From Calditrichota bacterium (GTDB taxonomy: Bacteria > Zhuqueibacterota > Zhuqueibacteria > Zhuqueibacterales > Geothermadaptataceae): a DNA stretch of 64,000 nucleotides. Of the stretch, positions 12,871 to 23,796 are shown in pieces. A program made the position numbers and the translations under genes. The stretch is taken from contig QQUE01000019.1 in the NCBI GenBank assembly GCA_008501765.1, forward strand, positions 1 to 64,000. The letters run 5' to 3'. Within the stretch, counting starts at the first letter, position 1. Every line of letters begins with the position of its first letter. A model generated the notes under the pieces. That model was given only the letters and a program-made list of their open reading frames with translations. It ran no database searches and was not told the DNA's origin.

Positions 12871-13887
12871 TTACTTTTCTACTGGGAAATCATGTGCTTC
12901 TGTCGCTTCAGTGAATGGGCTGGCGACGCGAACAGTGGCGTCTTTTGTCCAGGACATCATTCCGAATTTCATATTGGCAGATTTATAGCCAAATGAATAC
13001 AAAACGGCTGCAGCAACAGCGCCGGTGTGACCTGTGTAGCAGTAGATGACAATTTCTTTTGATGGATCGAGTACTTTCAGGTTATCCAGTTTGGCGATTT
13101 CTCTCCAGGGAATATTGATAGCGCCAGGGATATGGCCTTTGGCATAGTCTGTAGCGGAACGTACACTGACAATGATAGGATCATTGCTTGTATCGCCATC
13201 ATTCAAATTGTCAAATACCGTTTGTGCTGTAGTGACACTAGGACTATTGGATGCTACATAATCAGCTGCGGCTTGCACGATTTCAGCTGCATCTGTGGCT
13301 TCGGTGTAGTCTGTTTCTGGCAGATCAAAAGTTGCGGTAGGCGCGTTGATTGTTGTTTCGACAGTATAATCATGAGCGTCTGTATCTTCATTGAAAGCGG
13401 CTGCAACGCGAACGGCTTGATCTGTTGTCCATGAGCCCATTCCAAACTTCAGGTTATAGGCTTCGAAGCCCATCATGTTGAGCAGAGCCGTAGCGATTCC
13501 GCCGGTGTGACCAGTGTAGCAATATACAGCAATTGGTTTGTCAGTTGGTAGCAAAGCTGTGTTTGCAGTTTTACCAACTTCTCTCCACGGAATATTGATA
13601 GCGCCAGGAATATGGCCTTTGGCAAAATCTGCACCACCGCGTACGCTCAGTACGAAATAGTCATTTGTGGCATCGCCATCGTTCATATTATCGAACAATC
13701 CTTGTGCTTTTAGGATGGCATCTTGAGATCCACCAGTATAAGCATCAGCCGCAGGCTGGATTGAATCGAGCTCAGTTGCCGGATCTGGCTTTGTAGGGTT
13801 GTCGTCATCGCAACCGACGAATACAAAGCCGATTGTGAGTACCAAAAGGATGGCAAAAAAACGGTTCATTTGAGTTAGGCTTTTCAT
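12871..13887 (-). CDS. Lipoprotein with two rhodanese-like domains
   Basis: A 338-residue lipoprotein (lipobox FVGC) built from two similar ~120-residue rhodanese domains. Each has 'SVR....DFAKGHIPGAINIPWRE' and the active-site loop 'YCYTGHTGG', so the catalytic Cys is kept in both, but the loop lacks the arginine of classical CxxxxR sulfurtransferases. The two halves are nearly identical in places, suggesting internal duplication. AGGA sits eight bases before the ATG. It follows the multiheme cytochrome by 58 bp and precedes a strong terminator, so it closes the operon. A periplasmic sulfur-carrying or sulfane-binding role linked to the cytochrome is inferred. Confidence 0.9.
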   Translation of the reverse strand: MKSLTQMNRFFAILLVLTIGFVFVGCDDDNPTKPDPATELDSIQPAADAYTGGSQDAILKAQGLFDNMNDGDATNDYFVLSVRGGADFAKGHIPGAINIPWREVGKTANTALLPTDKPIAVYCYTGHTGGIATALLNMMGFEAYNLKFGMGSWTTDQAVRVAAAFNEDTDAHDYTVETTINAPTATFDLPETDYTEATDAAEIVQAAADYVASNSPSVTTAQTVFDNLNDGDTSNDPIIVSVRSATDYAKGHIPGAINIPWREIAKLDNLKVLDPSKEIVIYCYTGHTGAVAAAVLYSFGYKSANMKFGMMSWTKDATVRVASPFTEATEAHDFPVEK

Positions 13888-13945: not shown

Positions 13946-15226
13946 TTAATCTGGTATTTTATCAACAATTACACCCTGGTTTGCAGCCTGTTCTTCAGCG
14001 GACATATTTTGTAAATCATCCTGTGTCAGAAAAACAGCCGGGTTATTATGGCACGAACTTGTGCAGTTTGCTGCTTGTGGTGTATTTTTCTTTATGTTGT
14101 GGGGTGTTGTGAATTTCCACGTCGGTAGTGCCGCAAAATTAACAAGCGCGTTTGGTTCCCATTCGTCATAAGAATCTGGTGAAATCGGAATGTGGCGCAG
14201 TGTGACGTAATCCCACGGACGCTCAGCGCTTTTCAATGGATTTTTCCCGATTTTAAAACCAAGCTCTGATGGCTGTGTGATGCCGCTTTCAACTTTACCA
14301 ACATGGCAGTTGTAGCAATTCTTGTATTCCTGACTGTGGCAAACCTGGCAGCTTAATTTATTTTTGTGAACAGCGTGATAAGCATTGCTGCTAACCTGGT
14401 GGCAGTCTTCGCAAGCAGGAGCGAGGCTGTTGTCGTACCGACTGGTTGCGCCCGGTTCAGCCGTATGCAATTCTTCCGTAGAGTGACAGGCGACGCATTG
14501 GAAACCTTTGTTATAGTGTACATCGGCGCTGATACCTGCATTTTGACCTGTGAATTCACTACCCACACGGCTGCCGTGGCACGCTGTGCAGTTCAAGGTC
14601 ATGTTTGGACGTTTGTAGAAATTATGCCCGGCATTGAATCCACCGCTCACAGAAACAGGACGGGTGACGTGACATTGGCCGCAACTCGTGTGGCATTTTG
14701 CACATTTTGCTTCAAACATTTTTTCAAGTTCGAGCGATAGTGTGGCCTGACCTGAGCGTACTCGGATTGTTTCTTTGTAACCAGCGAGCGTCGCATGCAG
14801 ACTTTCCTGATGCTGAGCGCCAAGCGTTCCGTGGCACGTATCGCAGGCTTTTACGGGATCAGACGATGGCGCTACAATTAGATCGGTATGCGCCTGTTCC
14901 ATCGATTCACCCTGTTCATTTCCATTGTGGCATGAACTACAACTTAATTTACCATGGGTTGAGGTAAGAAAATCCTCACTAACGAGAACCTGTTGCCATG
15001 CCTCTAACTGAGGCACATCGCCACCTCATGACTCGCCCGCATCTTCGGTGGAACCCTCCTCGGGAATCGCTAATACCTTCAATTTTGCTGCATCTGTGTG
15101 GCAGGTTACGCATGCGGAGACAGCCAAGCCATCATCAGGGCTTGTCGGTGTCCGTGGGTCGGAACATTGGTAAAATGATGCAATCACGAAGAGGGACAGG
15201 ATAATTGCATAAAATGAGTGCCGCAT
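13946..15226 (-). CDS. Multiheme c-type cytochrome lipoprotein with an in-frame TGA (candidate selenoprotein)
   Basis: Read as one frame from ATG 15226 to 13946 this is a 426-codon exported cytochrome with a lipoprotein signal (FYQC), ten CxxCH heme sites and one CxxxCH (CTSSCH) near the end. The first CxxCH (CVTCH) is in the 66 residues before an in-frame TGA at 15026-15028; the other sites follow it without any frame change, joined as 'EDAGES-TGA-GGDVPQLEAW'. A 6-8-bp hairpin begins immediately behind the TGA. Either the TGA is read as selenocysteine, or it is a nonsense mutation or a sequencing error. Taken separately, the downstream part would start at GTG 15016 and lack an export signal, which would make it useless as a cytochrome. 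It belongs to an operon with the TPR protein upstream and the rhodanese lipoprotein downstream. Confidence 0.8.
14997..15017 (-). promoter_or_regulatory. Candidate bacterial SECIS hairpin
   Basis: On the minus strand, 16 bases behind the TGA begins the loop AGTTA closed by the perfect stem TGCCTC/GAGGCA, extendable by two G-U pairs. The known bacterial SECIS pattern asks for an apical loop 16-37 nt behind the UGA, a stem of at least four pairs and a G among the first two loop bases; all three hold. The hairpin also codes for protein, so chance cannot be excluded. Confidence 0.5.
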
Positions 15227-15271: not shown

Positions 15272-15718
15272 TTATTTTAGATTGTATTTGGTTTTCAAAT
15301 TCAGCAAGCTGATTATTTTTTTAGTGCTCTCATTTTCCGGGTCTAAATTGTATGCCCGCTGAAAAAAAGAATGTGCCAATTGGCAGTCAAAAAATGTGGC
15401 CAACATTCCTGCTGCGAGGTTCTGTTCTGTTTCGTTTAACCTGGCCTTAATTTCAGAATTGAGCATTAAAAAAATTTCACGCTCAAAATCAGGATAATCT
15501 TCATGGCATGATTTGGCTATGAGTGGATTATCTGCTTGCAGCAGATCAAAAAAATAGGGCAGAGCTCGGGGTAGCTGTTTAGTCGCAAGATAACTTAATA
15601 TTAATTTTTTAATGGCGAGACCATCCTCAGGATGCTTTCCAACGGCATTCTCGAGGAAAGGAATGGCCTCCTTGTATTGGCCAGCTAAAAATTTTCGATT
15701 TCCTAACATGCGATCCAT
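15272..15718 (-). CDS. TPR-type small protein, first gene of the cytochrome operon
   Basis: A 148-residue helical protein with two to three tetratricopeptide-like units ('AGQYKEAIPFLENAVGKHPEDG', 'ALPYFFDLLQADNP', 'AHSFFQRAYNLDPENE'). There is no signal peptide, so it is cytoplasmic. AAGG lies 11 bases before the ATG; a second ATG three codons on is an alternative. It stands ~40 bp behind a sigma-54-type promoter and 45 bp before the cytochrome gene, so it is probably the leader gene of that operon and could help in assembly; this is inferred from position only. Confidence 0.7.
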   Translation of the reverse strand: MDRMLGNRKFLAGQYKEAIPFLENAVGKHPEDGLAIKKLILSYLATKQLPRALPYFFDLLQADNPLIAKSCHEDYPDFEREIFLMLNSEIKARLNETEQNLAAGMLATFFDCQLAHSFFQRAYNLDPENESTKKIISLLNLKTKYNLK

Positions 15719-16253: not shown

Positions 16254-17978
16254 TCATTTCTCAAGCAGATCAAGTTCGCGCATACGACGCCATAAAGTTG
16301 TCCTGCTCATCCCTAATTTTTTAGCAGCCAGGGATTTGTTCCAGTGGCACTGCTGTAGAATTGTATGGATACGGTCGGCTTCCTCATCTTCCTGGATATC
16401 GGTATTGCCGTTTGTCGGTGGGCTGTTTGCAGATTCGGTGAACGGTACGAACTGGCGTAAATAATATGGCAACTTATTCACAGTGATAACACTGCCTTTG
16501 GTGCGGGCAAATGCGTGTTCGATAATATTTTCCAGTTCACGAACGTTGCCTGGGTAGGGATAGGCCATCAGCAAATCGTAGGCTTGATCAGCTATTTCAT
16601 TGATGTTTTTCCGCGTGAGACAGCGGTATTTTTCCATAAAGTGGTCAATAAGTGCTGCCAAATCATCCGTGCGTTCACTCAATGGTGGCAAAGCTATTGG
16701 AATGACGTTGAGGCGGTAATAGAGGTCCTCCCGGAAGGTCTCATCCTGAACCATTTGCCACAAGTCACGATTTGTGGCTGCGAGAACGCGCACGTCTACT
16801 TTTTGTGTCTGCGAGCTGCCGAGTCTTTGAAATTCACCACTTTCCAAAATTCGTAAAAGTCGCATTTGCGCGGCGGGTGTTAAATCTCCGACTTCATCGA
16901 GAAAAATAGTCCCGGTATGGGCGAGTTCAAAGCGGCCGATTCGGTCTTGATTGGCGTCGGTAAATGCTCCTTTCACGTGTCCCATGAGTTCGCTTTCGAT
17001 CAGCGAATCCGGAATGGCGGCGCAATTGACTTTGACGTAGGGTTTGTTCCGGCGCGAATTTAATTTTTGAATAGCATTCGCGACCAATTCTTTGCCCGTA
17101 CCACTTTTCCCAAGTATTAAAACCGTGGCGTTGCTTTCGGAAATTTCCTGGATAAGGTCATATATTTCCAGCATTTTTTTGTTTTTACCAAATATGCCGT
17201 GAAAGCTTTTTGCGGCGGGCTTGCTATTTTCTAAAATCTGTTTTGTGGCACTTTCACGAAAAGACATGATGCCACCCAGCGCTTCTCCGGCAGTATTGTA
17301 AAGTATTGAGGTGTTGGCGCGGATCATTATTTTTCGGCCGTCACTGCAAAGCATATCCATTTCAGATTCCATCATTGGTTTTCCACGCCGCAATGTTTCA
17401 GCAATAGGGCAACACTGCAAACAGCCGGTACAACGAAATATTTGGTTGCAATATTTCCCGACAACAGTTTCTTCTTTCCAGCCGGTGATGCGCTCTGCAG
17501 CGCGATTAAAACTCGTAATTCGCCACTCAAAATCGACGGTGAACAGGCCTTCTGCCAGTGAGCCTAAAACGGCCTCATTCGTTTCATTTGCCTGGCGAAG
17601 TAAATGGGTTTCATCCACCAGTCGAATTGTGATAATTGCCCCGTTTACATGGCCGTTGGCTTCGGCGATTGGGGTGAAATTGGCAATGCCGGTACATTTT
17701 TTATCGTCTTTTTTACGAATTTCAAACTGCTGATCCTGTATCGGTTTTCCAGCAGTTAAGGCAGAATTTACCCAGCATTTATCCAGCGGTAATCCCGGGC
17801 AGAAGACCGAACTGAAATGTTTGCCATGATTTGGGACTTGTTCGATATTTAATGCATTGGCAGCAAAAGCATTGATATGATTGACGCACCCCTCCGAATC
17901 AACAACGACAATTCCTTCGGCAACGGTATCAAGAACACCCTGCCAAATTTCATCCATTAATATATTACCAGTTACCAT
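16254..17978 (-). CDS. Sigma-54-dependent transcriptional activator (PAS-PAS-AAA+-Fis)
   Basis: A 574-residue enhancer-binding protein. Two PAS domains (about 8-122 and 130-245) precede an AAA+ domain with Walker A GKSGTGKE (about 290-297), Walker B 'TIFLDEVGDL', the sigma-54 contact loop written GAFTDA instead of GAFTGA, and the arginine-finger region 'FREDLYYRLNV'. A Fis-type helix-turn-helix ends the protein ('NKSLAAKKLGMSRTTLWRRM'). The second PAS domain holds a cysteine cluster CTGCLQCCP that could sense redox state or bind a metal/Fe-S centre. ATG 17978 is chosen for the AAGG before it. It very likely drives the -24/-12 promoter of the neighbouring cytochrome operon. Confidence 0.93.
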   Translation of the reverse strand: MVTGNILMDEIWQGVLDTVAEGIVVVDSEGCVNHINAFAANALNIEQVPNHGKHFSSVFCPGLPLDKCWVNSALTAGKPIQDQQFEIRKKDDKKCTGIANFTPIAEANGHVNGAIITIRLVDETHLLRQANETNEAVLGSLAEGLFTVDFEWRITSFNRAAERITGWKEETVVGKYCNQIFRCTGCLQCCPIAETLRRGKPMMESEMDMLCSDGRKIMIRANTSILYNTAGEALGGIMSFRESATKQILENSKPAAKSFHGIFGKNKKMLEIYDLIQEISESNATVLILGKSGTGKELVANAIQKLNSRRNKPYVKVNCAAIPDSLIESELMGHVKGAFTDANQDRIGRFELAHTGTIFLDEVGDLTPAAQMRLLRILESGEFQRLGSSQTQKVDVRVLAATNRDLWQMVQDETFREDLYYRLNVIPIALPPLSERTDDLAALIDHFMEKYRCLTRKNINEIADQAYDLLMAYPYPGNVRELENIIEHAFARTKGSVITVNKLPYYLRQFVPFTESANSPPTNGNTDIQEDEEADRIHTILQQCHWNKSLAAKKLGMSRTTLWRRMRELDLLEK

Positions 17979-18177
17979 ACCCACAGCCTTGAAGATACTT
18001 TATTCAAAATAGATTCGAATGCATAATTAATATTATTCCATATCACTGCGTTAAGAATACATAAACTAACGATGAAAGGCAAGTTATATTGCTGAAGTTT
18101 TATCGAATTCGGACTTCATTTTCATGTTAGGAAATGTAGTGATAAGCGAATATAATCAACAATATAAAGATGCAATT

Positions 18178-20905: not shown

Positions 20906-20946
20906 CACCACCCTTGCGAAGGTTTAAAACCTTCGCAAGGGTGGTG
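20906..20946. repeat. REP palindrome, copy 1 (20-bp perfect arms)
   Basis: A perfect inverted repeat centred on 20926, with CCTTGCGAAGG in the left arm. The same core flanks the RAYT transposase at 23967-23997 and 24591-24623. Here it stands in the leader of the NACHT gene, where it may act on expression as an RNA hairpin. Confidence 0.85.
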
Positions 20947-20988
20947 ATTCCACAAAAATCAAACCCGGAACAACGAAAGGAAAGTTCA

Positions 20989-23796
<2,808 letters not shown>

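Follow-up and report, generated by a model that had tools for sequence, protein, structure and literature searches.

The window analyzed here is a stretch of 64,000 nucleotides from a Calditrichota bacterium (contig QQUE01000019.1). Its minus strand encodes a multihaem c-type cytochrome at 13946-15226, a putative selenoprotein whose reading frame (15226-13949) runs from ATG to TAA as a single open frame of 426 codons containing one in-frame TGA only. This TGA lies at 15026-15028 (codon 67) in the context AGES-U-GGDVPQLEAW, and would encode a candidate selenocysteine (Sec) within the motif GE(G/S)-U-GG. A signal peptide and haem site 1 precede the TGA, and the other haem sites follow it. The sequence-only reading, which named no strand, had placed these two portions in one frame split by a single TGA; the minus-strand frame bears this out, the plus-strand frame being full of stops. 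A plain ORF list begins the gene at 15016, after the TGA, with loss of the start and the first haem site. The protein contains ten CxxCH motifs and one CxxxCH motif (residues 388-393, C388-H393), of which both Cys and the His never vary across the alignment of 81 members; the haem count is probably 11, the eleventh haem being presumed. It matches the Pfam families Cytochrome_C7 and Cytochrom_c3_2. The N-terminus is hydrophobic and followed by Cys21, which is at least 90% conserved in alignment A1, and this sequence suggests a surface or periplasmic cytochrome that is putatively a lipoprotein.

On the same strand, 58 bp downstream of the cytochrome, lies a gene for a lipoprotein-like, double-domain rhodanese with two CYTGHTG loops (12871-13887). 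A small TPR protein is encoded directly upstream (15272-15718) and a sigma-54-dependent PAS/AAA+ regulator further upstream (16254-17984), both also on the minus strand; their relatives lie near 10 and 11, respectively, of the 80 best-matching cytochrome loci described below (the named loci). Elsewhere in the window, a long ORF at 20914-23796 appears, from its translation judged by eye, to combine a P-loop NTPase part with an FGE-sulfatase-like C-terminus.

Bacterial SECIS elements are hairpins close behind the TGA, about 16-37 nt away, with a G early in the loop. Directly behind the TGA of the window gene, a SECIS-like hairpin spans 14997-15017 on the minus strand, comprising a Watson-Crick stem of six pairs at 14999-15015 (TGCCTC-AGTTA-GAGGCA, loop AGTTA) that extends to eight pairs with two wobbles, at a TGA-to-loop distance of 16 nt. 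This geometry is exactly as first described from the sequence, and the accompanying argument that a random nonsense mutation would not be expected to bring such a hairpin also stood: only about 2.2% of 1000 synonymous recodings of the window gene reach its score, which is likewise not attained at any other codon position tested within the gene.

Relatives were collected from two sources. A search of 99 genomes with the window protein found 25 full or near-full relatives (one a fragment) in 24 genomes; a single in-frame TGA interrupts 19 of these. Across the 24 loci compared from this set (L017-L040; the short, weak matches L041-L046 were left out of the column comparison), the TGA occupies the same column in 18, Cys in two, Leu in one and Arg in one, while the segment is missing in two; a second match in genome G070 (G070:C109), added by hand, has a TGA at the column too. 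Scanning 84,980 species-level genomes yielded 288 stretches that encode relatives, and the best 80 of these, the named loci, feature a same-column TGA in 75, Cys in two, Trp in two and Arg in one. Pooling both sets gives a same-column TGA in 93 of 104 loci, a figure that includes the window gene and 15 duplicates, i.e. loci of the first set that share the sequence behind the Sec column with named loci and are counted once in the hairpin, recoding and rhodanese counts below. The flanks on both sides of the TGA are conserved in distant homologues; the motif is almost always GEG-U-GG or GVG-U-GG, and Gly64 and Gly69 are invariant in alignment A3. By their record labels, the TGA loci belong to about nine phyla, mostly as MAGs (labels include KSB1, Calditrichota, Gemmatimonadota, Planctomycetota, Chloroflexota, Actinomycetota (Acidimicrobiia), Eisenbacteria, Neomarinimicrobiota and Thermodesulfobacteriota), and some of these labels may be wrong. 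The family includes a cultured member, Bellilinea caldifistulae (L123), whose predicted Sec-spanning peptide reads GAG-U-GGEVAPLEPWEK and whose genome has a tRNA-Sec.

The alignment of homologues proposed in the sequence-only reading thus places the TGA at one fixed column across distant homologues, with Cys at that column in L051 and L053 (L020 and L019 in the first set), the only two Cys forms among the 88 loci counted. The companion rule that Gly, Arg or Trp would indicate mutation does not count against the Sec reading. Trp (two loci, L072 and L099), Arg (one) and Leu (one, L026) do occur, but they look like later losses of Sec because they are nested among Sec forms in a tree built from the window gene, all 80 named loci and seven further ones. 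L072:7905-9227 (TGG) and L082:342-1529 (TGA) are close sisters with the same hairpin; since the hairpin of its sister is kept, the L072 Trp is either a recent, early-caught change from Sec to Trp or an assembly error. L051 derives from a MAG labeled Actinomycetota, although in the tree its cytochrome pairs at full support with the Calditrichota L053, and its sequence also agrees with a locus from a relative of the same class; its label is probably wrong.

By our own rule, a hairpin with a G early in the loop near the TGA is present in the window gene and in 79 of 81 sequences, L039 and L071 having none; the loop is GTT in 46 of the 79, AGTTG or AGTTA in 18 and GGT in seven. Conservation alone proves nothing here, because all of these sequences code for a similar peptide behind the TGA. 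Covariation is what carries the proof. Across the 81 sequences (80 distinct), 89.6% of the 480 cells of the six-pair stem are paired, versus 79.2% after shuffling and 38-64% when the stem is slid. Double changes occur at all six pairs, in 37 cells versus 7.7 expected among the 81 TGA-bearing sequences, a count inflated by kinship because much of it (19 cells) reflects a single C-G to G-C exchange at columns 16/28. Further covarying pairs comprise AU and CG at columns 15/29, and AU and GC at columns 18/26. The protein covaries with the RNA: in many members VPPLEAW alternates with VAPLEPW, Pro and Ala being exchanged between the two arms. When each gene was recoded synonymously with its own codon use, the native hairpin stood out at p≤0.05 in 60 of the 81 sequences and not in 21, with a mean score of 17.3 versus 8.5 in the recodings. 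RNAalifold did not predict a consensus structure for the hairpin region.

The source genome (5.9 Mb, 98.9% complete) contains all four of the Sec genes whose presence had been proposed as a check: a tRNA-Sec (selC; 66.4 bits, with ARAGORN in agreement), selB (342.5 bits, on the same contig at a distance of about 2 kb), selA (544 bits) and selD (353 bits). The selD gene (G000:C3:229267-230187, L130) has an in-frame TGA of its own and probably encodes a selenoprotein too. A tRNA-Sec or selA was found in 17 of the 19 TGA-form genomes from the relatives search, tRNA-Sec matches below 50 bits being left uncounted; the other two genomes are 67% and 73% complete. No tRNA-Sec was found in the TGA-form genomes G099, G101, G103 and G126, and G120 gave a match of 47 bits only. 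It was also not found in G019, the 99%-complete, TGA-form genome with the closest full-length relative, where selA is present; a divergent tRNA-Sec is possible there, and a paper on KSB1 likewise reports selC missing (PMC9012183). Both Cys-form genomes retain tRNA-Sec. For the named loci, tRNA-Sec was searched in the genomes of 33 of the 80. Sec use is common in the group, with a tRNA-Sec in 57 of the 99 relatives' genomes, so the presence of the machinery is weak evidence by itself, and we rejected tRNA-Sec presence as a discriminator.

Together, the Sec machinery, the TGA column in distant homologues and the covarying hairpin support the original proposal of a selenocysteine cytochrome. At the level of sequence the case for SECIS-directed Sec is strong, and we consider the TGA almost certain to be decoded as Sec. 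Two other accounts of it appear highly improbable. Non-Cys substitutions at the column might suggest that the gene is decaying and that the TGA is a simple nonsense mutation or a sequencing error, but the pooled recurrence of the TGA at one column refutes this account, the covarying hairpin also opposes it, and a sequencing error is implausible because the TGA recurs in dozens of assemblies. General read-through of UGA as Trp or another standard residue is equally improbable: it could draw on L072 and L099, where the column is occupied by Trp, but the genome encodes Sec machinery, the hairpin has both the spacing and the covariation described above, and in the genome of the Trp-bearing L099 the tRNA-Sec search gave nothing above 47 bits.

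The best clue to the function of the cytochrome is its adjoining rhodanese, which the sequence-only reading had passed over. When the neighborhoods of the 80 named loci were clustered, a same-strand rhodanese gene was the dominant neighbor (62 of 80), often fewer than 100 bases downstream of the cytochrome and, in another group of loci, upstream. Other neighbors of these loci were LysR regulators (22), 4Fe-4S proteins (21), beta-barrel-like proteins (13) and NrfD-type membrane proteins (8), and in Chloroflexota the NrfD and 4Fe-4S neighbors suggest a link to quinone. One LysR neighbor (L105:6659-7621) scores 202.7 bits against the cut-off of 250 of the selenium-metabolism LysR model NF040786.

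A six-frame rhodanese profile search of 88 loci (the 80 named and eight others, the window apart) found a rhodanese adjoining the cytochrome in all 53 Sec loci with more than 1.4 kb on each side, and in 71 of 80 Sec loci overall, each of the nine without one having less than 1.4 kb on one side. Where flanks sufficed, an intact rhodanese (one ORF of at least 280 residues) was present in 52 of 53 Sec loci versus none of five non-Sec loci (Fisher p 1.3e-6, kinship ignored). None of the eight non-Sec loci in all has an intact gene, the flanks of L026, L037 and L038 being short. The rhodanese of L051 is split between two frames, L053 retains an 84-residue remnant and L099 a 94-residue piece; none was found at L072, L103 or the three short-flanked loci. 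The tree requires five changes of state for Sec and rhodanese, so the joint loss represents about five independent cases. Genome G070 provides an internal control: its Sec paralogue has a rhodanese just downstream, whereas its Leu paralogue (L026) has none within flanks of 1.2-1.5 kb. On the contig of the TGA-bearing L082 no rhodanese was found, and nothing in the corresponding genome (G132) matched at E≤1e-15; along with it, the genomes of L095 and L108, which likewise carry the TGA, had no hit with the double-rhodanese profile, which omits the four-domain type, and in all three cases the contig ends near the gene.

An AlphaFold2 model built with 81 relatives has a mean pLDDT of 88.2, with a dip to 66 near the Sec that would fit a flexible arm. 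VIA-align ranks octahaem tetrathionate reductase (OTR; 1sp3) as the best match to this model (Z 9.4, 4.3 Å rmsd, 265 aligned residues, model residues 88-426), ahead of HAO (Z 5.1) and the sulfite reductase MccA (Z 3.0), and the Sec arm falls outside the matched range. A profile search of the PDB also placed 1sp3 first (E 4.9e-6), aided by CxxCH motifs, while a PDB search with the single window sequence matched nothing and Foldseek against the PDB gave nothing significant (best E 2.5). As the best structural match, OTR may hint at a sulfur link. The cytochrome has about 4.0 kDa per haem, within the range that one review calls purely electron-transferring (PMC7096707), which points to the haem part being an electron-transfer core; for this reason we would place the chemistry on the Sec and the rhodanese, away from the haem.

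Among known systems the closest parallel is ExtKL of Geobacter (GSU2937-2936; NF040886), a predicted Sec pentahaem cytochrome with five N-terminal haem motifs and the Sec after them (PMC1914089, PMC6148476). It is encoded in the ext locus, extHIJKL(MNOPQS), where extHIJKL is described as comprising a rhodanese lipoprotein, the Sec multihaem cytochrome, a porin-like protein and a divergent LysR regulator (PMC6148476). Both systems thus share a predicted Sec TGA in a multihaem cytochrome next to a rhodanese-like lipoprotein, with porin-like and LysR genes nearby. Unlike ExtKL, the window protein has 11 likely haem sites, with Sec67 between the first two. Membership was rejected, as NF040886 was absent from the six families that match the window protein at E≤10 and the layouts differ; by analogy, the window system may nevertheless work like ExtKL. 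ExtM gave weak matches in 59 of 81 members, its cut-off being unreached for the window protein. OTR, whose model TIGR04315 is listed with a Sec member, is the best structural and profile match as above, but TIGR04315 did not match the window protein at E≤10 and matched 6 of 81 members weakly (best E 1.5e-5), and we rejected membership there too. The DmsE-family decahaem cytochromes (TIGR03508) match at 23.2 bits against a cut-off of 192.2 and were likewise dismissed. Weak matches to the UshA-like (seleno)protein model NF041198 occur in 14 of 81 members of alignment A3 (best E 1.3e-5). No NCBIfam 20.0 model passes for the window family. A table from 2026 that covers 119 families of prokaryotic selenoproteins (PMC13188914) does not contain the window family; its haem-related entries include ExtKL, the MtrB-like GSU2204 family and the octahaem tetrathionate reductase family, and the window motif is noted for none of these. 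Judged against this table, the window cytochrome represents a new selenoprotein family; a search of a library of open-access papers for selenocysteine-containing cytochromes found nothing. A Sec in a multihaem cytochrome had been called unusual from the sequence: ExtKL and the listed octahaem family provide precedent, and it is the family itself that is undescribed.

In rhodaneses, sulfane sulfur is bound to a Cys in the form of a persulfide. We propose that the SECIS hairpin directs insertion of Sec; that the rhodanese lipoprotein would form a persulfide with sulfane sulfur (or selenium) drawn from thiosulfate, polysulfide or a related compound; that the Sec, held between haem sites 1 and 2 by a flexible Gly-rich arm, would accept that atom, or attack and cleave the persulfide bond; and that the haem chain would give or remove electrons, connecting this chemistry with the quinone pool or an outer electron partner. 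We infer Sec insertion, the reaction between Sec and rhodanese, its substrate and its direction. Such a mechanism predicts the observed pattern, in which the rhodanese is lost or broken where Sec is lost while the haem core stays. Functional coupling of the Sec with the rhodanese is likely, while sulfane sulfur as the substrate, suggested by the neighbors, is a tentative assignment. As a whole, the reading of a SECIS-decoded Sec in an undescribed family of extracytoplasmic multihaem cytochromes, working with a rhodanese lipoprotein from persulfide to Sec to haem, has in our estimation a probability of roughly 0.6.

The parallel with ext raises the alternative that this selenoprotein serves to reduce selenite, tellurite and related oxyanions, or to handle them in connection with their uptake, as a non-homologous counterpart of ExtHIJKL. 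The shared ingredients favor this, as do the impaired selenite and tellurite reduction of an extI deletion, from which its authors suggest that ExtKL takes part (PMC5877670), the beta-barrel-like and LysR genes near some of the named loci, the sub-threshold score of the one LysR against the selenium-metabolism model, and the weak ExtM matches. Against it, the window protein has no ExtKL match at E≤10, its haem layout and Sec position are unlike those of ExtKL, and a model search with the window rhodanese gave no hit bearing an Ext name; we regard this alternative as unlikely, while giving it some weight. Less probable again is that the Sec acts as the distal ligand of a haem, or tunes a nearby one, in place of serving as a nucleophile. 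Alignment A3 contains 11 haem-attachment His versus ten other strongly conserved His, which may leave one haem without a His as distal ligand, and the Sec segment does lie between two haem sites. However, members with Trp, Arg or Leu in place of Sec, and even those lacking the segment, keep their haem motifs, and Sec loss tracks the rhodanese.

These data suggest that a widespread family of haem-selenoproteins has apparently been missed, with relatives encoded in 288 stretches and the TGA present in 75 of the best 80. The matched loss of Sec and rhodanese yields a testable hypothesis on the role of Sec in multihaem cytochromes, a question common to Geobacter ExtKL, and a cultured member exists in B. 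caldifistulae. In its most specific form, which we advance with more reserve than the sulfane sulfur assignment, the family may constitute a new type of selenium-dependent extracytoplasmic sulfur oxidoreductase, spread over about nine phyla of cultured and uncultured bacteria and hidden from annotation by its TGA, in which the swinging Sec arm of an 11-haem wire would join the rhodanese persulfide to the respiratory chain.
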